Source of the DNA: Zychaea mexicana
Lineage: Eukaryota; Mucoromycota; Mucoromycetes; Mucorales; Lichtheimiaceae
Assembly (NCBI RefSeq): GCF_025766255.1
Contig: NW_026516673.1
Span: 603,598 to 667,597, forward strand
Direction: 5' to 3'
Length of the DNA: 64,000 bases
The notes under the pieces were generated by a model. The model made no database searches and was not told where the DNA came from. It worked only from the letters and a program-made list of their open reading frames with translations. Below are positions 47,395 through 64,000 of this stretch, piece after piece. The position numbers and the translations under genes are program-made. Every line of letters begins with the position of its first letter. Position 1 is the stretch's first letter.

Positions 47395-50300
47395 CTACGT
47401 TAGTAAAAGGTACTGATTACACAAGCTCCTCCAAGTTCTACTAACCAAATCTTCGTTTGATGGACCATTGTCGTCATCCATGCTTTCTTGGGGACCTGTA
47501 CTTCTTGTCGGCTTTTCTTCTTCCAAGAACTAGTATTAAGGAAAGAAGATTGCATATAAGCGAATGTATATATCACAAAGCATAGCACATAATGGACTTA
47601 CAGTTCTTGCTTCTCCAGATGTTACGTTGCTATCTGGTGCTTCCTCATTGGTAATCAATGTCAGGCGTTTGTTCTTCATGATATCCCAGAAGCCGCGTCT
47701 GTGCGACTGTGGATTGCTAGGATCGCACGTATTTTTTAATTGATACAAATACTTGTTGAACGCCTCCGACTCGTCTTCCTTTGCTGCTGTTGATCGGAGA
47801 CACTCCAAGCATTCAAAAGCTTGCTCGTAATCTCGGTCTCCAAAAGATTGGGTGACAAGCTTGGTGATAATAACGCACATTTGTTCCACAGCTACAGAGT
47901 ATTGTGTCAAAGAGCAAGTAAGTAAAACTTTACATAAAATTGTGCATCGCATATAACAATAAACGTACCGCTGGTGACCAAATCCTCTTCTCGGTTATTG
48001 ATCATGTTAGTGAAGTCTCGTTTGGGATTTTCCATTGTAATCTCGCGTGTCTCCTTATTAAAGAGTGCGCGTATCTCGGAGCCTGTTTGTTCTTCCTGCT
48101 TGATATGCATTTCGGGAACACGTTGCTGCTGAGTCTGCAGCACTTGATCGAGAGGTAATAGATTTTCTGGTACACCTTGGTCTGCATCGATACCTCCATA
48201 TCGTTTTCTCTTGCTTGCACGATCAACTACAACAATAATGAGTTATTCAGTAATTTGCTTGATCATTTCTCGGTTTAATTGAATGTTTACCTTTTTTTAC
48301 ATTGAGCACTCGCTTCAGATTTTCAATACTGTTCTTGTTTTTGGCTATCAATTTTGCGGGTTGATCAAACTGTTGTTTTAGACGCGGATCCAGTTCAGGG
48401 ATGGCAGCTGCAGGGTTGAGTGCTCGAGCAATCATAGCCTTTTGGGTCAGCCATAACTGAGGGTTGTATATTTCATCGATTTCGATCATTGCATCTTCTT
48501 CATCAGTTTCATCGTCTCTATACGCTCTCCAGTAAGAAAACATACTCTCTTGCTTTAAAATTCATTAAAAAATCTCATCGATTACCCTTTGTCATCATCT
48601 GCATATACTGGTTCTTTGATGGTCATGCCTTTAACAAAAGCTGACATTGCGTCTCGTACGTCTTGTGTTGGCAAGAGAGGATGATCTTCCGTTATTTCTT
48701 TGCCAGATTCAGTAAAGACCTTGTCCAACGAACTGAAAGTGAAATCTCGATAATCTTCTGCAAAAGGGACCTATAGGAAGATTATATGAATCTAGCAACA
48801 TCAGTAGCAACACTATTAGCTTCAATATAAACATGGTTGACGACATACCCGAACAAAGTACAAGGCATCAATGTCTTCTCGCAACACAGGCTTAAGAATA
48901 CCAAGCCTAGGCGGAACGTTTGCACGCGACACATGACGGACCAATGCCACCCAGTTGTTTTTTCCCAAAGCCTGTGCAAACGCTGATATAGCTTTTGCAG
49001 CGAAAACGGGCTGGTCACTACCTCCAACGATAGTGTATACGTTGGACATTTGAAGTTGTGGTGGGAACTATGTAGACAGAAATGTGGTGTTATATTATCG
49101 CACATGAGATCTGTCACTACTTTAATTGAGCATAGAATAGCAAGACTTACTGCCTTTTTGTGGTAGATTCCCAAAACAGTCATACATGGCTCGGTCTTCA
49201 GCTTCAAGTGTTCTTCAGTATCTGGAGATACCACAACTTTTTCCTTGCCAAAATTATATGCCTTTGCAAGCTCCGATTTCTCCACCACTATATTTTCGTC
49301 TTCGTTTGCATGATTATCGTCATTATGTCCGCTGTCGTCGGCGTTGTCGTTGTCTTCGTTGTTGGCATGCTTGCCCGAATCTAAATGTTTGACTTTGTAT
49401 ACGGTGTCGGATGCTACTTGATGACTTTCTGCTCCGTGTTCGTTCCTTGTGCCAGTTACATTCGAAATCGACGACCATTTTCCTGCAGACGGAACTTTTG
49501 CCTCCATTGTTCTTGCGTACATGTTAATACTGACAGAAAGCGACGTATCAGGAAATTGAACGCGATCACCAAATGTTAGATAGCCACGATATGTCGGCGT
49601 GGGTCGGACTTCCTTCTTGTGAAATTGAGTGGATTCTTCAATGGCGTCCATCAAGTCAATAAGAAAGCCGTTCGGTACGTCCTTCATTAATTGCTTCCAG
49701 TTTTCCAGATTCGTTTTGACTCTCTCGTTTGCCCTATTGCCTAGTTCTTCCGCGTCGGAAAGACCCAAACAGCTGATCACAAATTTTAAAACATGTGTAA
49801 ATCAGAATGATCTATCGTTGCACATAGAGATTTATAGAGTGCCTGGTAAACTCCAGCTTCCTTACGCGATTGAAATTTCGATACCGCATCCGCGCAGCAT
49901 TTGATTGACATCTTCGATGTTGTCCCAGTTGACGTTTCCTTCCAAAGTCGTAAACAATCGGATACGTTTTTCGAACTTCAAGTGGCGTACATAGTCCTTG
50001 ATCATGGCAACAGTCAATATAACCGCATCGAAAGCTAATCGATCAGAACTCTGTTGGTTATTTCAAAAGTCTTTAAAATGCACGCAGTATATCCATACAG
50101 TAAGAAAGAAAATCACTCTGTATCGCCAATACTTACGGTCAGCACTGTTTTCTTTTGAGTCCAAGAGTGGGACGTTCACAAATTTGCGCACTAGCTCGAG
50201 ATCAGGTTGCTTGATCTGGCTCATTACAGTTATGTGCTGGTATTGGCCAGGCTGTTCAACCGCGAGGTGGTTGTCAGATTCTAGATATAGTCATCTTTAG

Positions 50301-53982: not shown

Positions 53983-56722
53983 ATGTCTGAAGAGCAACCG
54001 GCACCAAAGCTCTCATTAAAGCAGAAGCGAAAGCTGCAAGAGCAAGAAGAGCTAGAATCACTTGAATCGAAAGTGGCTCAACCTGTATGTTTATCGATTA
54101 TACCTTCTTCGTTAGATCTATAATAAAACTAACCCGAGATCTTCAATTTTTGACAGGACAACTATGTTGACACCAAATTCTTTGATGATCTACCGATCTC
54201 GACCAAAACTCGCAAAGGATTGAAACGAAGCAACTTTCGGCAATTAACCGACATTCAACGTAAAGCGATCCCACTTGCTTTGGCTAAACGAGACGTTCTG
54301 GGTGCAGCAAAGACCGGTAGTGGCAAAACACTGTCATTCCTTGTACCTGTAAGCGCTGCTAAAGCAATTAGTTTAAGTAGGATGTATAAATTGTACAAAG
54401 TGCTCACCTGTAGAATATGTCATGCTGATAGGTGTTGGAAATCCTGTATCGTGCTCGATGGAACGCAGCAGACGGCTTGGGTGCCTTGATCATCTCGCCC
54501 ACCCGTGAGTTGGCTGTCCAAATCTTTGAGGTGCTCAAGAAGATTGGCCGTGAGCACTCATTCTCAGCAGGCTTGATTATTGGTGGCAAGGATTTCAAGG
54601 TGGAACAGGAACGTGTGTCACGAATGAATATTTTGGTGGCTACGCCGGGACGTTTGTTACAGCATATGGATCAATCTGTTGGCTTTGATTGCGACAATCT
54701 GCAAGCGCTGGTGCTGGATGAAGCAGATCGTATCCTCGACATGGGTTTTCAAAAGACGGTTAACGCCATTATCGAAAACCTGCCAAGGAGCAGACAAACG
54801 ATGCTCTTTTCGGCTACACAGACTCGATCCGTCAAAGATCTTGCACGACTTAGTTTACAAGATCCCGAATACGTTGCTGTCCACGAAAAGTCAGAGCACA
54901 GTACACCTCACAACTTGACACAACACTATGTCGTTTGCGAACTGCACAAAAAGCTCGACGTTTTATTCTCGTTTATCCGATCTCATCTTCAATCCAAGAC
55001 GATCGTATTCATGTCCAGCTGCAAGCAGACTCGGTTTGTCTATGAAGCATTTTGTAAACTCCAGCCCGGTATTTCGCTCTTACATCTGCACGGCAAGCAA
55101 AAACAGACCAAGCGCGTTGAGATTTTCCGCAAGTTTACCACTACGCAGCACGCCGTTCTGTTCAGCACGGATATCGCCGCTCGTGGTTTGGATTTCCCAG
55201 CCGTAGACTGGGTGTTGCAGCTAGACTGCCCTGAAGATGCAGACACATATATTCACCGTGTTGGACGTACCGCACGTTTTGATGCCAGTGGCCATAGTCT
55301 TTTGCTGTTATTACCTACTGAAGTCGAGGGAATGATGGAGGAACTCAAAAAGAAGAAGGTGCCAATTGAGGAAATCAAGGTTCGCGACAGTAAGCAGCAG
55401 TCTGTCCAAAAACAATTACAAAGCTACTGTTTCCAGGATTCAGAAATGAAGTATCTTGGACAAAGGGTAAAGGAAACTTTATTTGATTTCTGCCAGGAGT
55501 ACATTGAACATGTCTACTAACACTTTCATCGTTAGGCTTTTGTCTCGTACATGCGCTCAGTGTTTTTACAACGTAACAAGAACATTTTCAAAGCAACCGA
55601 ATTGCCAACAGAAGAGTATGCGGCATCGCTTGGTCTTGCGGGTACACCTAAGATCAAGTTTATAAACAAAGCCAAAGCTAAAGAAACCGCCGCCTCCCAA
55701 CTACTTGAAGAAGAAAAAGAAGAAGAGGATGAGGAAGAGGATGAAGAAAAGGAAAAGGTAAGAGACAAAGTGGATTTCTGCCAGCAGTAAGATATCTTAC
55801 TTTAATTCGATCATAACTTTAGGATCGAGTCAGAACGAAATACGATCGCATGTTTCAGCGAAAGAATCAGGATATTTTGTCAGAGCATTACAACAAGCTT
55901 GTCGATTTTGCAAATGACACTGTTACCAAAGATGATGATGGCGATGACTTTTTGACGATTCAACGAAAGGATCATGATCTGGAAAGCGAGCCCGAAGAAG
56001 ATATCAATGAGTTGGTGTCAGAAAATATATCCAAGCGACAAGCAAAGATGACCAAGAAGCACGTTGCAAAGAAACAGACCAAGGGTGAACGAATTGTGTT
56101 TGATGATGAAGGCAACGTAAGTACAATACATTTTCTGGTTTTTCGTTTTTACTAAATTTATCTAATTCATTTATTAGCCACATCAATTGTATGAAATGGT
56201 GAATGAAGAAGAGTTTTTGAAGGATGGTGATGCGAAGGCACAAAAGGAAGCGTACATCAGTGAAGAGACCAAGGCCATGGAGACTGCTGATTGGGAAGAT
56301 AAGGCAACCGCAAAGCAGAAGCGCAAAGAAAAGCGAGAAAAGCGGAAGCTACGAAAGCAACAAGAGGTAGGGCTAATGCCTAGTCCCAGTATTTATAAAG
56401 CCTAGTAGTAATCAGCACTAACACATTTTCGATTTCTTTTCAGCTGATGGAAGCCAGAAAGGAACGAGGTGAAGACGTGGACGAAGTAGTTTACACATTG
56501 GGATCTGGTGCAGAGGATTCTTACAGCGATGCATCCATGTCGGAGTATTCATCTGATGAAGAAGAGGACGAAGAACGTGAGGCGTTCAAGCGAAAATGGC
56601 GTGAAGCTCAAGAAGACGAAGAGGACGAATCGCGATCTGGAAAGAAACGTGTCATTGAAACCGATGAGCCTGTTACTCTGGCAGATCAGGAAGCATTGGC
56701 ACTTAAACTTTTGGGAGCATAA
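53983..56722 (+). CDS. DBP4: DEAD-box RNA helicase Dbp4 (DDX10)
   Basis: Nucleolar helicase for early 18S pre-rRNA processing and U14 snoRNA release. Seven exons, 53983-54084, 54157-54348, 54432-55466, 55536-55757, 55823-56116, 56178-56366 and 56444-56722, give 770 aa. All introns are phase 0. Motifs: Q-motif [16 protein letters not shown], Walker [10 protein letters not shown], Ia [11 protein letters not shown], Ib [78 protein letters not shown]. The Dbp4-specific region follows ([17 protein letters not shown], then [20 protein letters not shown]). The C-terminal half is highly charged ([30 protein letters not shown]). Ends 104 bp before the SET gene. Confidence 0.96.
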
Positions 56723-56826
56723 AATTAATTCTTTTGTACATTTTCTATAATTCATTTAATCCAAACTTTTTTCAATATCAGCATACATAATTTTTTTTGC
56801 GTCTTTCGTTCCATACCCTATACCTG

Positions 56827-57309
56827 ATGGAAAAGAAGCAAGGCGACGACGCTGCCAACAACGGCAACGACACAGTTGTCTTGTCCCCACATCGACTCCA
56901 GCTTGAATTGAGAACTCATCCTGTCCGTGGACGAGGTGTGTTTCCAAAGGAACGGATCAAACGCAATACGCTTATCGAAATCTCACCTGTTTTGTTGTTT
57001 TCGCCGGACGAGTACAAGGAACACGGTCAACATACTGTCCTTGATCACTACACGTATATATGGGAAGGTGGCCAATTTGCCCTTGCACTTGGTCTTGGCT
57101 CCATGTTTAATCACAACACCAACCCCAATGTGGGCTACTATAGAGATTTCAAAAACAAGGTCATTCGTTACACGACAACGCGCGACATTGAAATAGACGA
57201 AGAAATGTGTATATCTTATGGCTCGAATCTTTGGTTCGAAGACACTGAAGAGCAAGTTGAGTCGGATCTCGACGAACAAGACTGGTTGGGAAGCTTTGAT
57301 TTGGATTAA
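56827..57309 (+). CDS. Small SET-domain protein
   Basis: Intronless, 160 aa, almost entirely a SET domain: RTHPVRGRGVFPKERIKRNT at the start, ALALGLGSMFNHNTNPNVGY (the NH motif: FNHNTNPN), VIRYTTTRDIEIDEEMCISY then GSNLWF (the catalytic Tyr region). SET enzymes transfer methyl from AdoMet to lysines, on histones or other proteins. No pre- or post-SET cysteines. The acidic C-terminus ends SFDLD. The substrate is unknown; small free-standing SET proteins in fungi are often non-histone methyltransferases. ATG 56827 is the first ATG of the frame. Same strand as DBP4, 104 bp after it. Confidence 0.85.
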   Translation: MEKKQGDDAANNGNDTVVLSPHRLQLELRTHPVRGRGVFPKERIKRNTLIEISPVLLFSPDEYKEHGQHTVLDHYTYIWEGGQFALALGLGSMFNHNTNPNVGYYRDFKNKVIRYTTTRDIEIDEEMCISYGSNLWFEDTEEQVESDLDEQDWLGSFDLD

Positions 57310-57696
57310 GAAAAAGCGTACCTGACTTTTTGCGTTTACCATAACAAAGTTGGGTGTCACCAGCGGGCAGTAAGCGGTAGTTTCTGCCACTGAGAACCGC
57401 ATGCGTGACATTATCATTCTAGATGCAGTAGATTAATCAATCTGTAAGAAAAAAATCAATGTAATATATATCTTTTTTGATTTTCTGTATATTCAACTTA
57501 TTTACGCCAGAAATAATCTTGCGTTACTCAAGAAAGATTTTGTGTTGTCTGGGGAACAGATTTGCGCCAGTGATTTAGGGCTATTCGACGCATGGAAACA
57601 TATATTCTACGTCGTCGCCTGGGAATAAAATAATACCGAATGGCCTTGTTAGACTCTATCAAGAGTCTTTTTTTTGTAATGAATTATAGCAACCAA
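57310..57696. other. Intergenic, no gene seen
   Basis: 387 bp of AT-rich DNA between the SET gene and the left copy of the long direct repeat. Confidence 0.55.
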
Positions 57697-58378
57697 GATG
57701 CTACTTTCATGAATATCATATCAATCGTAACATCAATCTATTAAATTAATTATAATGGTGTCATGGTACTATTATTTACTTACACATTTTTGTGAACTTT
57801 TGGTTAAATCCAACAATAAAATGGCGTTTCTTCGAAAAGGGCAAAAGGAAAACTGTGGATCGACCTCCCAAGAATGGAATAGCTAAGAAAAATTTTCACT
57901 CATTTAGCCACTGATAGCAATAAATTTTTTTCCCCTTTTCTTTCCTTCTTCCCTTCGCGCAAAATATTGTGTCTTGTTACTTCCTGTGGTTTTTGAAGTT
58001 TTATTATCAAAGCAAAAAGTAGGTATACCGAGGAGTTTCAATATAACTAGCATGAACCTCTCATAAATACATCTAAAAACTATTGTTAACGTTTAATTTG
58101 TTGGTATTTCCATTCCAACTTCATCGACAACGACAGGGTCGAACCCAATATGACAGAACACAGCTTGGTTGAAAAAGGTGTGTATCTAGTTCTGATTTAT
58201 TCACAAATAGCATTGACACTCTTTTAATATCCGAAATAGCAATCTCCGAACTCTCAAAAACAACAAAAAAAATCTCTTACCAACAAATCATCGATCACCT
58301 CACCGATGATATTGTCAGCAGTTGCGATGCAACAAAAGAAAACGCAATCGATGATCTCAAATCATTTTGGATATACGA
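57697..58378 (+). repeat. Long direct repeat, left copy (about 680 bp)
   Basis: Starts at GATGCTACTTT and matches 63318-64000 base for base, except for eight substitutions and one 1-bp indel by my count. It contains the promoter, exon 1 and most of exon 2 of the gene at 58150. The match begins abruptly at 57697; its true right end is unknown because the right copy is cut by the window end. Confidence 0.95.
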
Positions 58379-59778
58379 GCTGGAAAGAGCCATGTGCGAT
58401 GCTGAAATTACTCTTGTATGCGTTATCACAATTAAAATGAAATGCTATATAATTATATACATACGTGTTACTGATACCATTGACATTCAATCATATATTT
58501 ATCAGATTCGAGCTGAGCCATCCTTTAAAAATATCAAAAAGAAACTAGAAGACAAAATGGAAGTAACGCAAGGAAATGGCCCAGCCACTGCTGTCACAGC
58601 AACAAAACCTGCAACACCATCAATAAGTCCCAAAGCCAAGGCAAAATCAACATCAACAGCTTCGAGCAAATTGTTGACTAAAGAAGAAAAACAACAAATT
58701 GACAAGATGTTCGCAAAACTGGATCCGGAAAAGTTCCGGACACTCAAAGCAACAGAAAAAGAAGCTGCAAAAAAGAAGGAGAAGCCCAAAGCAGTTGAAG
58801 AAAAAATAATGGAATTCGCACGAAAATGCAACTACTACTAGTAAGTAAAAAAAAAACTTTTCCTTGATATGTTATGCTTAACCATAGATGCTCAAATTAA
58901 ATTACTCATTTTTATACCAGCCCAAGTCAATCATTAATCCTTGATCTTGAAGACGATCATTGTGAAAGCGTTTTCACCACAGACGAATTGGGCGAATTAG
59001 AAGAAGATCATGGCAACCCGCTGTTGTTGCCTGTGACCGAATGCATCGCTGATAAGTTGACCGAACTTCTTCAAACAGTAGTAAGTTAAAACAAACACGG
59101 ATTATGATGATTGTGGTATGTTTTTAACCCTTTTGGTATTATATCGCTATTTGTAGAAAACGCCCAAGGACGTTTATAAATATGCATAGAAGATTGACCA
59201 CGATCCTATCGATGATCCTCTTCTCGTATGGTTGACGATGACTTTGATGCCCGTTTCGCTCCTTTGCATGAAGCATGCTGATGTCAAGGAAGGATATCTT
59301 GAGTCCGACAAACAGTACCAGATGTGGGGCTTCATCAATACTGTCTTCATTGGCTCGCCGATCACCGCTTACAGGTATGCGATAGCAATTATGCACACCA
59401 TCACTTTAATAACATATGAACTAACACATTATTTCAATGATTGTGTTTTTATGTATCATACAGCAAAGAAAAGTCCAGCAAAGCAAACGCAACAGCATCC
59501 AATAGCAAGCACAAACTTTCTACAGTTGAAGAAGTTCAACGAAAGGCGATGGGAAGAAAAATGGATGCCATTTATATCAGTGGTGGAAAGGAAGTGGGGT
59601 GCATGGAAGTTGTAAGCGAAGCAGATCAGACGAAGGAATGGAAAGATGGTATGGTGAAAATGCCCGTTGTCATGTAAGACCAACTTTGGGAGATTGTCCA
59701 AGAAGCACCCGAGCTGATTCGCAAGGTTGAGGGGGGTAATGGGTTTAACACGAAACAGTTATTTACATATCCTCCTTT
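58150..59778 (+). pseudogene. Decayed member of an uncharacterised fungal multigene family (copy A)
   Basis: Recoverable exons: 58150-58177, 58240-58415, 58506-58840, 58921-59080, 59157-59374 and 59464-59778, with good GT-AG borders. The start reads MTEHSLVEKAISELSKTTKK; exon 3 is Lys/Ala/Thr-rich (KLLTKEEKQQIDKMFAKLDP); later blocks are ESDKQYQMWGFINTVFIGSP and MDAIYISGGKEVGCMEVVSE with KEWKDGMVKMPVVM. Defects: a TAG after DVYKYA in exon 5; a shifted segment near 59230-59285, where a neighbouring frame reads VDDDFDARFAPLHEAC; and a TAA after MPVVM (59675-59677), beyond which the frame still reads DQLWEIVQEAPELIRKV. I associate this type of protein with expanded, uncharacterised families in Mucorales; function unknown. 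The first two exons are inside the long direct repeat. Confidence 0.75.
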
Positions 59779-59831
59779 AGAAGGGTAATGGGTTTAACAC
59801 GAAACTGTTATTTACATATCCTCCTCTAGAA
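59734..59831 (+). repeat. Tandem duplication, 2 x 49 bp
   Basis: 59734-59782 and 59783-59831 are identical except for two bases. The first unit still reads in frame with the decayed gene (GNGFNTKQLFTYPPLEG). A 12-bp perfect inverted repeat, TCTAGAAGGAAA (59825-59836) and its complement (59854-59865), sits at the right end, just before the AT-rich insert. Confidence 0.9.
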
Positions 59832-59970
59832 GGAAAGAAAACAAACATACTTATTTCCTTCTAGATAGGATCTTATTCAGACATACCTTTTCGAGGTGGA
59901 TTCTATAAGTATCATTATTTAATGAGAAACTAAATGTCTTTATTTTTTAAAAAAATAGTGTTATTTAATT

Positions 59971-60078
59971 GATGCTATCTAATTTTATTAATTTATTAAA
60001 AAAAATGTTTACAAAAATGTCTTTTAAAATTTTAGCAATCGCCCTATTCCCCCTTCGTATCCTGCGATTAACTTTAAA
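59971..60078 (+). repeat. Plasmid leader motif, copy 1
   Basis: Begins GATGCTATCTAATT, then after an AT-rich spacer TGTTTACAAA and TTTTAGCAATCGCCCTATTC, CCTTCGTA and CCTGCGATTAA. The same order of blocks occurs at 61332-61432. Each copy lies just upstream of a plasmid reading frame, so it could be a promoter or RNA-processing signal of the plasmid. Confidence 0.7.
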
Positions 60079-60107
60079 CTTAGTTTGGGTTATTTCTACT
60101 TATTAGT

Positions 60108-61199
60108 TTAAAATACTTATTTATGGATGTAATAGATTATTACAAACTTATTATTCTTTATTACAGAATAATATTCTATCCATTATTAAGTTTATTAAAC
60201 ATAAGTATTACTATTCTACAGATAAAAATCATTTTAGATTTGCATCTGTATTTTTTAATCCTAATATTCTAGTTGATTCTATTCATCTTTATTTTATAGA
60301 ATTTATTCACTTCTTAAATGATAATCTTTTTAACATTTTTACGGGCTCTTTAGGTTTAGTATTACTAGGTTTATTAATTTATATAAGTTCTGCCCCTCAT
60401 TCATCTAATACAAATCCTTCATCAAAAAATACTTTTAATGTTAATTTTGGAGATGGAGGTGTAGGGTCAAATAATCATCCATCAAATAGTAATTCTAATA
60501 ATGATAAACCAATTACTTCTCCTGGAGTTGCTGCAGGAATTATTTCTGGAACAACAATAACTGCTGCAGTTGAAATTGCAAAAACAAATCCTAGAAATGG
60601 ATTGTTTTTAGGTGTTGTTGGTACTATTGGTAGTTTTGCTACTTATGGATTAGGTGAAATGATGAATCGTAACTATGAAGAAAAAAAAAATGAGAGAAAT
60701 GTGTGAAAGAATGTATTATCACTCTATTAAAAGATCTGGTAGTCCTCTACTAGATGGAAACTTCAAAATTAATTCTCCAAATGAAAATAGTAATAATTTT
60801 GTAGAATTAATTTCAAAATTCATTGAAAATCCACAAGATGTATTTAATTTATTAAATGAATATTTTAGAGGTAGTGATGGAAATCCCAGTCCTATTTTAA
60901 TTTTATGTGTTTGTCTATTTACATTTATTGGAATTCTTGGTTGTTTCTTTTTAATTATAGGTATGTTAAGTAAACTAATTAAAATTGAAGAACGAGAATT
61001 TATTAAGAATAGACCTTTATTACATAAATTAGTTTGCCTTATTATTTCATTAAGAGATTGGAATAATTTTGTATTAATAATAATTATGTTATTATGTCAT
61101 ATTGGAATTTTAGTTATTTGCTATTATTTAAACGAATTATTCTGGGTTGATGATTCATATAAAAGATTGTTATTATTATTTTATAATAATAATAAATAA
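60108..61199 (+). pseudogene. Plasmid-borne membrane-protein ORF, frameshifted
   Basis: From about 60108 one frame is open without an early ATG to a TGA at 60704-60706: it reads CNRLLQTYYSLLQNNILSII, FRFASVFFNPNILVDSIHLY, a TM segment (GSLGLVLLGLLIYISSA), an Asn/Ser-rich linker, then a Gly/Ala-rich hydrophobic stretch (GVAAGIISGTTITAAVEIAK; LFLGVVGTIGSFATYG) and MMNRNYEEKKN. At the A-run 60680-60689 the next frame (open from 60675 to 61199) takes over: MREMCERMYYHSIKR, ELISKFIENPQDVFNLLNEY, and two more TM segments (ILCVCLFTFIGILGCFFLII; NFVLIIIMLLCHIGILVICY). Probably one ancestral protein broken by a slip in the A-run. Similar unassigned membrane ORFs occur on fungal mitochondrial plasmids and mtDNA; function unknown. 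Confidence 0.6.
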
Positions 61200-61331
61200 T
61201 CTCCCATGATATCAATATTTATTATTATTTTTTAAAATTCTCCCCTGGTACCTTGATTTATGTCTTCTTGTGGCGGTACTGTAAGTAGAGATAATTAATC
61301 TTGAAACTAAATAAATCATTACTAAAAATTA

Positions 61332-61432
61332 GATGCTATCTAATTACTTACTTTAAAAATATGATGTTTACAAACTTATTCTATATTTTTAGCGATTGCC
61401 CTATTTTCCCTTCGAATACCTGCGATTTAAAC
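61332..61432 (+). repeat. Plasmid leader motif, copy 2
   Basis: GATGCTATCTAATT, then TGATGTTTACAAA and TTTTTAGCGATTGCCCTATT, CCTTCGAATACCTGCGATTTA. It parallels 59971-60078 block by block, with substitutions, and lies at the start of the RNA polymerase relic. Confidence 0.7.
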
Positions 61433-63317
61433 TCTTTTACAGAGCTTATTTCAAGTTACATTAGGATTAAAACACCTGATGGTTTAATTACTAGTAATAT
61501 CTAGATTAATACTCCAGATAATTTACTTTTAGCTTTATTACCTTCAGTGGTATGTATAAATAAAAACCCTTCAGAAAATAATATTTTAAATTCAACTTTT
61601 AATGATTTAAAAGATTTTTCTCTTATAAATAAAGATTCTAGTGGTTATATTACTATTAAAGAAATTTTATCAAACGATATTTTATCTCTTAAAGAAAAAC
61701 AATTAAATTTAAAAGAAATATTACATTCTTTATAGTTGAAAAAACTAGAAAAAATGAGTAAGTCTAAGGATTTCTTAATACAAATCCTAGGTTTAGAATA
61801 CTTTTAAATAACTATAAGTTCTTAGAAGACGATTTAAAAATGTATTTTGAAAATGAAAAATATATTAGAAACAAAAAATATCTTTTTATGTTTAAAGAAA
61901 TAGATAAATCCTTGATGCTGTTCTTGATTTTAAGTTTGTTAATCCCCTTTATTATGAAATATGAAGATAATAAAGAACAATCAGTTACTACTTTACTTCA
62001 TAGATTAGGAAAAACTTTATATAAAGAATGTTTATATCAAAAATATATTAAAGAAGTTGATGATAAATCTAAGGATATTGTAACTTTTAATTTATATTTG
62101 AAAATTTTACAATGAATGAAGAGAATTTTATTAATATTGGTGGTACTATTATTAGTTATTTGGATATGAAAAGTGATCTTTTTAATATCTTAGAACGATA
62201 TGATGTTAAAAGTAAAAAAACTCATAGAGAAATTATTCCTAGTTACCAATTGAAAAACTATATTAAATATTTAGGTATGATTGATGGTCATGAATTACCT
62301 ATAGTATATCCACCTATTTATTGGGAATAAATGATAACAAAGAATTTAAGATATATAGTGGATATATTACTAATAATATTAAGAATTTTAATCCTTTAAT
62401 TAGAAGTAAAAGGTTTACTGAGTCAAATATTAAATTTATAAATAAAATGACAATTAAAATGGTTAATTATATGTCATCTATTGGTTTCAATATTAATCTT
62501 AAAGTATTAGATCTTTTAATGAATCTGCCACTTAATGATGATTTAATTATTAGAACATTACATAAGGAGACAGATGAAATGAGTGAGATTATTAAAAAGA
62601 ATAATAAAGAAAAAGAATTTGAAATTACATCTTATAATAGTAAATTCTTATATAATAATTCAATTTTAACTATTGCTAAACTTTATAGAGATGTTGAACA
62701 ATTTTATTTTACTTTCTTTTTAGACTAGAGAGGAAGAGTTTATTGCCAAGGGGGTGAATTAAATTTCCAAGGTGGTGAATTAGCAAGATCATTATTGTTA
62801 TTCAAAAAAGGTAATGTATTATCTGAAAATGGATTAAATTCATTAAAGGTTTATAGAGCAAATGCTTTTGAATTAAATAAATTATCTATTACCAAAAGAT
62901 TAGAATGGGTTGATCAACATTTTTCAAAAATCTTAAATTTAAATTCAGGATTATGGAGAAAAGCTAATGAACCTATGTTATTTTTAGCTTTTTGTTTTGA
63001 GTTACAAGGTTATAATAAGGATCCATTAAACTTTATTTCTAGTTTACCAATTTATTTAGATGCAATATGTAATGGTGTACAACATTTAGCTGCAATGATT
63101 TCTGATTTTGATCTAGCTAGTAAAGTTAATTTAGTTGAATCTGATATGAAAGATGATCTTAATGATCTTTATAGTTTAATGTTAAATCCTATTAATGAAG
63201 AAATTAAGAAAATAGAGGAATGTGATTTAGAGTATGCCAGATTAAAGGGTTTAGTATTAAATAGAAAGATTGTAAAAAGAAGCTTAATAACTATTTCATA
63301 TGGAGTTAAGATTAAAG
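61400..63317 (+). pseudogene. Broken T7-type RNA polymerase of a linear mitochondrial plasmid
   Basis: Single-subunit, phage-type RNA polymerase that would transcribe the plasmid. It is split over several frames: 61400-61735 (stop TAG at 61502-61504), 61840-62115, 62112-62330, 62321-62728 and about 62735-63317. Conserved landmarks: DVEQFYFTFFLD then RGRVYCQGGELNFQGGELA and RSLLLFKKG; LDAICNGVQHLAAMISDFDL, which is motif A (the catalytic Asp, then the NG.QH pattern); and LNRKIVKRSLITISYGVKIK, which is motif B (RK.VK...MT..YG). Motif C and the rest of the palm are absent because the sequence switches to nuclear repeat DNA at 63318. Many frame breaks plus truncation make it inactive. No evidence that TGA is read as Trp in the readable parts. 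Confidence 0.8.
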
Positions 63318-64000
63318 GATGCTACTTTTATGAATATCATATCAATCGTAACATCAATCTATTAAATTAATTATAATGGTGTCATGGTACTATTATTTAC
63401 TTACACATTTTTGTGAACTTTTGGGTTAAATCCAACAATAAAATGGCGTTTCTTCGAAAAGGGCAAAAGGAAAACTGTGGATCGACCTCCCAAGAATGGA
63501 ATAGCTAAGAAAAATTTTCACTCATTTAGCCACTGATAGTAATAAATTTTTTTCCCCTTTTCTTTCCTTCTTCCCTTCGCGCAAAATATTATGTCTTGTT
63601 ACTTCCTATGGTTTTTGAAGTTTTATTATCAAAGCAAAAAGTAGGTATACCGAGGAGTTTCAATATAACTAGCATGAACCTCTCATAAATACATCTAAAA
63701 ACTATTGTTAACGTTTATTTTGTTGGTATTTCCATTGCAACTTCATCGACAACGACAGGGTCGAACCCAATATGACAGAACACAGCTTGGTTGAAAAAGG
63801 TGTGTATCTAGTTCTGATTTATTCACAAATAGCATTGACACTCTTTTAATATCCAAAATAGCAATCTCCGAACTCTCAAAAACAACAAAAAAAATCTCTT
63901 ACCAACAAATCATCGATCACCTCGCCGATGATATTGTCAGCAGTTGCGATGCAACAAAAGAAAACGCAATCGATGATCTCAAATCATTTTGGATATACGA
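63318..64000 (+). repeat. Long direct repeat, right copy (cut by window end)
   Basis: Begins at the same GATGCTACTTT as the left copy, fused directly to the RNA polymerase motif B. Offset from the left copy is 5621 bp, 5622 after the 1-bp insertion at about 63422. Most differences from the left copy are transitions. Confidence 0.95.
63772..64000 (+). CDS. Second copy of the multigene-family gene (copy B), 5' part only
   Basis: ATG 63772, exon 1 63772-63799, exon 2 from 63862 to beyond the window. It encodes the same MTEHSLVEK-AISELSKTTKK start as copy A with one amino-acid difference (HLADD for HLTDD). No defect is visible in the part present, so copy B may be the intact gene. The upstream 450 bp are also duplicated, so the promoter came along. 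Function unknown. Confidence 0.65.

Follow-up and report, generated by a model that had tools for sequence, protein, structure and literature searches.

Mitochondrial-type plasmid DNA at the join of a tandem duplication in the genome of Zychaea mexicana

Zychaea mexicana belongs to the Mucorales, and the stretch of its 50.3-Mb, 305-contig genome that was analyzed here (the window: 64,000 bp, bases 603598 to 667597 of contig C2) ends in a locus where DNA of a mitochondrial-type linear plasmid lies between two copies of a duplicated piece of nuclear DNA. The best explanation, which we hold with moderate confidence, is that the plasmid entered by a G-capped end, that host DNA was duplicated in tandem at the join, that the same plasmid entered at many other sites, and that its copies later decayed by mutation at CpA and CpG.

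Plasmid DNA between two copies of a gene start

Two direct repeats bracket the plasmid DNA, one at 57697 to 58378 and one from 63318 to the end of the window at 64000 (features are on the forward strand unless noted). They lie where the initial annotation had placed them, are 98.68% identical over 683 aligned columns (eight substitutions and one indel, a single gap), and are 5,621 to 5,622 bp apart, which bears out a spacing given as about 5.6 kb. Their length and identity exclude an origin by chance. The 680 bp reported as the repeat length is not a natural limit, because C2 (667,597 bp) stops at the last base of the window and cuts the second copy (copy B). With the left limit taken from C2 and the right limit from two other contigs, C202 and C246, the duplicated segment runs from 57697 to 59730 (2,034 bp), and plasmid DNA lies precisely where its two copies meet. 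Copy A, which occupies these coordinates, consists of the upstream region and the 5′ part of an uncharacterized Mucorales gene, which breaks off at the plasmid, 59730 being its last host base. The plasmid-derived segment follows at 59731 to 63317; it opens with a G-capped terminus (six G at 59731 to 59736, then TAATGGG) and is truncated on the right inside an RNA polymerase gene. As had been claimed, the AT-rich insert ends exactly at the second repeat, with the last plasmid base at 63317 and copy B from 63318; at this junction (63317 to 63319), the host repeat and the plasmid sequence as continued in the copy on contig C201 overlap by 2 bp (GA). GC content is 20 to 28% in the insert (60001 to 63500), 34 to 41% in the gene region (57501 to 59500), and 40 to 46% at 54001 to 57500.

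Fennellomyces, Mucor bainieri, and Circinella minor have relatives of the duplicated gene, the one in C. minor being 72% identical across 65% of the query; the four proteins that were scanned gave no Pfam match above the cutoff. Copy A meets the plasmid at the codon for E or D in KVE/D-IVGY. On C202, the translation of copy B continues across this point as KVE-IVGYAIHG, matching KVD-IVGYSIHG in Circinella, which indicates that copy B represents the empty site and that no host base is missing from copy A on its left side of the join. Since the empty site has no G at the join, the six G belong to the plasmid. The continuity of copy B on C202 and a left junction formed by the plasmid's own terminus support the earlier proposal of a tandem duplication whose breakpoint holds plasmid DNA of mitochondrial type. 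A stop codon follows PVVM in all five Zychaea gene copies aligned (PVVI in copy B of C246); the Circinella protein P0006 reads KMPVVMQDQL...KVDIVGYSIHG, that is, with no stop after PVVM. Judging from these alignments, the stop is probably older than the duplication, although the change from CAA to TAA is itself one of the favored changes described below, which tempers this dating.

In the course of events that we infer, a linear, invertron-type plasmid from a mitochondrion would have reached the nucleus, and its intact G-capped left end would have been joined to a chromosomal break after 59730. At its right end, broken at 63317, the same molecule would have been joined, over the 2-bp overlap and with a change of template, to a sister or homologue at 57697. 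The result would be 2,034 bp of duplicated host DNA with plasmid DNA at the join, for which one repair event would suffice. Most of the arrangement would later have been copied to two other places, on C246 and C202.

On those two contigs, the right end of the plasmid, the junction, and copy B stand in the same order as on C2. The left copy there starts only at the equivalent of 58610, behind a flank common to both (99.8% identity over 1,019 bp) that differs from the C2 sequence before 57697. Copy B reaches the equivalent of 59730 on both contigs and is thus longer than on C2; on C246, 13 further bases are in common past that point, and other sequence follows. Pairwise substitutions among the three contigs over 58610 to 64000 amount to about 1.6 to 1.9%.

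A dispersed plasmid family with a shared terminus

The initial annotation spoke of a single capture, a view that did not hold, as the insert belongs to a dispersed family. The genome contains at least 49 matches to the insert (60000 to 63317, 3.3 kb) and at least 43 to the 191-bp plasmid terminus. The flanks of 37 terminus copies, chosen by their terminus, form 15 classes with no between-class similarity at an E value of ≤0.01, and in 14 of these classes the join falls on one and the same plasmid base, preceded by a run of G. In 13 classes, four to seven G directly precede TAATGGG in at least one copy; class C273 has GGGGGAGG at the plasmid end, and class C240/C305 has an altered end, GAGAATGGG, without a G run before TAATGGG. 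A less biased count comes from the insert matches listed: 31 of them extend leftward to base 60000, and in 28 of these the terminus is present (13 of 15 by group). Right ends differ from copy to copy, lying at 63289, 63306, 63317, and about 200 bp beyond, and 31 to 34 of the 49 insert matches listed overlap points in the first 600 bases, against 18 to 19 from base 2400 on. One plasmid would have inserted at numerous sites, in most cases through one particular end, and the 15 flank classes correspond to perhaps about 13 independent entries, a count that is based on the left terminus and could overlook entry by the other plasmid end.

A tree of 30 plasmid copies is nearly a star, most of its deep branches having lengths close to zero. 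Copies of the same flank class mostly group together, those of C2, C246, and C202 with a support of 0.998. Divergence averages 2.6% over 29 within-group pairs and 4.1% over 348 between-group pairs, with C79 left out, C90 treated as one class, and pairs with fewer than 380 shared columns dropped.

The plasmid terminus carries a 49-bp unit. Two copies of it stand in tandem at 59727 to 59824, and other sites have one to four in a row, the number being variable within two classes. At locus L034 (C54:19900-21150), four tandem units are followed by an interrupting element with inverted ends and then by a fifth unit. Two open reading frames (ORFs) come next, ORF 1 at 60107 to 60706 and ORF 2 at 60666 to 61199; both are open from stop to stop, lack a Pfam match above the cutoff, and look membrane-like by eye, and relative to most aligned copies a 2-base deletion lies near 60683, where they overlap. 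The remains of a T7-like RNA polymerase gene occupy 61340 to 63317, the start being predicted from a 470-codon open frame in the copy on C201. They contain in-frame stops at 61502, 61733, and 62726, each of which is TGG in some other copies, as well as small deletions. The stretch from 62729 to 63370 matches PF00940, the T7-like RNA polymerase family (E value, 3.2e-39), and the relatives of this polymerase among solved structures (PDB) are mitochondrial and T7 RNA polymerases; a homologue search with the 470-amino-acid piece gave one weak match. A stretch of about 105 bp occurs twice at 77% identity, at 59967 to 60069 ahead of ORF 1 and at 61327 to 61427 ahead of the RNA polymerase gene, and might serve the plasmid as a promoter or for processing.

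The copies on C237 and C201 run through more of the RNA polymerase gene into a convergent gene for a type B DNA polymerase (DNA_pol_B_2, which Pfam describes as organellar and viral). This gene lies outside the window, whose copy is truncated before it. The DNA polymerase is putatively protein primed, as its family suggests; it has nine matches in the genome, eight of them above the cutoff, and a search of solved structures with the DNA polymerase piece gave nothing relevant. On the strength of these sequence features, the insert is classed as part of an invertron-like plasmid. Only one plasmid end was identified: the DNA polymerase copies examined break off before their upstream end, and six further terminus copies followed inward hold the same left part only or soon break off. 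A stretch of low GC content on C201, below 98.7 kb, was considered as further plasmid DNA and rejected, as it resembles a stretch of C237 with a weak DDE_Tnp_4 match below the Pfam cutoff.

Other rearrangements were observed within the family. A transposon with inverted ends of about 1.38 kb (starting CAGGATTTTTCA) lies inside several plasmid copies (L026:3699-7474, L054, L058, L059, L015, and L016). L015 and L016, on C79, form an inverted duplication whose flanks are 99.6 to 99.9% identical, while 23 of 990 bases differ between the two plasmid parts.

Several observations weigh against the proposed history. C2 ends inside copy B, and C2 and C202 differ by 4 substitutions over 62501 to 64000, compared with about 2.3% over 58601 to 62200; this low divergence at the contig end may reflect over-extension of the contig or gene conversion. 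Both facts would fit an assembly artifact in which the last part of C2 was borrowed from a C202-like copy, C2 itself having no copy B. We regard such an artifact as improbable, since the junction and the arrangement are also found on C202 and C246, so that the locus would move but the feature would remain. The worry, raised at the outset, that the second repeat is artificial is likewise weakened by the same 63317/63318 junction on two further contigs, although the last 1.5 kb of C2 may be over-extended. In the gene copies, two sites unite the B copies against the A copies, but three unite A and B of one contig. The 2-kb duplication is also peculiar to the window locus: no flank duplication was found at seven other plasmid copies of four classes (in flanks of up to about 1.5 kb, the right side of C201 being still plasmid), and duplication as a general habit of the plasmid was rejected on these grounds.

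The same end product would result from two steps, in which the plasmid first entered the gene at 59730 on one homologue and later broke at 63317, the broken end then being joined at 57697 to a homologue or sister without the insert. The variation of right ends between copies agrees with this, as the right end may be secondary. Two events would be needed where one suffices, however, and among the matches listed no copy has plasmid followed by host sequence from 59731 on; we give this course of events a minor but real chance.

The number and manner of the entries meet with objections of the same kind. Some groupings depart from a pure star, namely, C273 with C146 (support of 1.000), two C277 classes (0.974), and two C90 classes (0.985); the copy C201_107k also groups with one arm of C79 (0.947), and C242_73k stands apart from its partners. 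Some flank classes may therefore be rearranged copies of one entry, making the entries fewer than 15. Nor do all copies bear out entry by one end: two C79 copies start near 59906 and C146 starts near 59824, without the terminus, C237 begins at a point equivalent to 62817, and all that C274 has is DNA polymerase sequence, these last two being right-hand parts. Finally, no free plasmid was seen and COX1 has no match in the assembly, so that the mitochondrial residence of the source plasmid is a point that we infer.

The surroundings of the insert are nuclear, with host genes on its flanks, among them genes for a DEAD helicase and a SET protein upstream. Ku80 had been placed about 8 kb away as a curiosity; a gene with a Ku70/Ku80 beta-barrel domain does lie at 48782 to 49801 on the reverse strand, about 8 kb from the repeat, and no link between this Ku70 or Ku80 gene and the event emerged. 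Elsewhere, on C264, C250, and C107, 13 matches to pieces of NADH dehydrogenase subunits, some in two copies and 9 of them with in-frame stops, are taken as nuclear mitochondrial DNA segments (numts).

Context-biased mutation in the nuclear copies

Changes from C to T in the plasmid copies depend on the following base. They were counted with one row per class (14 classes, C238 being omitted as too short) and with the commonest letter of a column as the older state, a choice that is unsafe with three rows. They affect 92 of 1266 cells at CpA and 23 of 166 at CpG but 6 of 775 at CpC and 13 of 1491 at CpT, an 8- to 18-fold enrichment at CpA and CpG over CpC and CpT; the same count gives 44/3560 for TpA to CpA and 86/14261 for transversions. 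Polymorphic sites in the host-gene copies (five rows) are distributed similarly (CpA, 20/175; CpG, 10/78; CpC, 1/88; CpT, 2/115), as are those of six pooled sets of other nuclear duplicates (CpA, 47/469; CpG, 26/208; CpC, 7/245; CpT, 5/382). The C116/C203 flank set has TpA (21/146) at the level of CpA (16/107). In transposon copies, CpG is prominent (32/382) and CpA (42/1260) is not above TpA (43/1280), so that a signal of the type left by repeat-induced point mutation (RIP) is weak there. The observed/expected ratio of CpA is 1.19 in window positions 1 to 57000 and 1.17 in rough noncoding pieces; this lack of depletion speaks against a long-standing genome-wide effect.

Stops occur, in one copy or another, at 13 codon positions of the RNA polymerase stretch, and 5 of these stops are common to more than one class. 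All five shared stops (TGG to TAG in three cases, CGA to TGA and CAA to TAA in one each) are C-to-T changes at CpA or CpG when both strands are considered, and four of the positions differ within a class. The fifth, codon 464, is TAG in six classes and TGG in three, a variation that may go back to the source plasmid population. The shared stops were accordingly set aside as proof of copying from nucleus to nucleus, and reassignment of stop codons was set aside because other copies have sense codons at these positions.

These stops also bear on whether the plasmid-derived DNA is now a nuclear transposon whose broken copies spread with a transposase acting in trans. The fixed left end at 15 flank classes would agree with this, as would the sharing of 5 of 13 stop positions, codon 464 included, between classes. 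The right ends vary, however, no regular target duplication was seen, and no transposase was found among the ORFs scanned, while the within-class variation of four of the five CpA/CpG stops is what recurrent mutation predicts. We consider this explanation very improbable. A DNA transposon in the usual sense, with two fixed ends, a target duplication of constant size, and its own transposase, was rejected on the variable right ends, the seven copies without flank duplication, and the ORF scan.

The initial annotation saw a conflict between the recent age of the event and the broken reading frames. That conflict finds no support, because C-to-T change biased by context makes stops quickly; a RIP-like bias at CpA and CpG accounts for high identity together with broken genes. 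After entry, the nuclear copies would have decayed with this strong bias, the genes being broken while identity is still 93 to 98%. Their reading frames carry stops and indels, and the ratio of nonsynonymous to synonymous substitution rates is 0.44 to 1.38 in 10 comparisons with small counts.

To our knowledge, a mutation pattern like that of these copies is familiar only from other groups of fungi. RIP is described as a C-to-T bias at CpA in duplicated DNA (in the available portions of PMC12543289 and PMC7862722), and the first of these sources places strong signatures, in 130 species, in four classes of Ascomycota. The Zychaea copies share this bias, C-to-T change in duplicated DNA being mostly at CpA, and differ in that CpG is affected at least as strongly and that the host belongs to the Mucorales. 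The available portion of PMC13297926 lists RID under Ascomycota and credits Phycomyces with a homologue of DIM-2. Our exon-wise PF00145 search of the genome gave three matches at two loci, one of them a gene with a BAH domain (DNMT1/DIM-2-like). The second locus is presumably DNMT2-like, going by its motif. No RID-like methyltransferase was found in this search, whose exon-wise design means that absence is not proven. The decay at CpA and CpG suggests a repeat-directed mutation process in the Mucorales, for which we found no report of a RIP-like signature in those parts of the RIP literature that were surveyed.

Known systems and implications

Nuclear plasmid copies in fungi are known already. 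As far as the available text of PMC10583447 goes, fungal and plant nuclear genomes hold mitochondrial linear plasmids with a protein-primed DNA polymerase and an RNA polymerase, the Mucorales being among the fungi named, and Zychaea has the same pair in nuclear DNA. That text describes no joining at one plasmid end at many sites, no surrounding tandem duplication, and no CpA/CpG decay. End-precise entry and the mutation signature are new; the literature surveyed, mostly titles and the opening lines of abstracts, contained no account of many sites being entered through a single end with base precision.

Kalilo is reportedly an invertron plasmid that inserts into mitochondrial DNA. Such plasmids are described as inserting whole or in part, with gene decay, and as having opposed RNA and DNA polymerase genes (PMC9925561, in part). 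The Zychaea plasmid shares the opposed polymerase genes, partial insertion, and decay, whereas its target is nuclear and its terminal units are 49-bp tandem repeats; of its ends, at which an invertron would carry terminal inverted repeats, one was identified. Ascomycete yeasts show nuclear capture and decay of AT-rich cytoplasmic linear elements (Satwika 2012, as cited in the available part of PMC4431711). Repeated capture and decay of AT-rich linear plasmid DNA are common to both cases, while the Zychaea plasmid has an RNA polymerase of the T7/mitochondrial type and most of its left junctions are end-precise.

Agrobacterium T-DNA enters with one precise end, the protein-bound border, and one truncated end. 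The Zychaea copies share this asymmetry; the protein guide is known for T-DNA and only putative here, where a covalently bound terminal protein, by analogy, would explain why one plasmid end leads. We know of no common fixed end in numts, whereas 14 of the 15 terminus classes in Zychaea have one. Numts are inserted at double-strand breaks, according to the available portion of PMC2567098, and the use of organelle DNA as filler at a break is shared.

Taken jointly, the observations tentatively suggest a burst of plasmid entry into chromosomes, usually with the G-capped end leading and the other end lost, as in T-DNA, followed by RIP-like mutation at CpA and CpG outside the clades with reported RIP, a combined reading that we put forward as a possibility rather than an expectation.

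At the window locus, DNA of an organelle plasmid marks the breakpoint where a gene was duplicated in tandem. If plasmid entry is indeed end-precise at many sites, a route from organelle to nucleus would become testable, because random numt fragments hide which end of the molecule is active. A repeat-directed mutation process in the Mucorales would, in turn, bear on the age of fungal genome defense by cytosine mutation.

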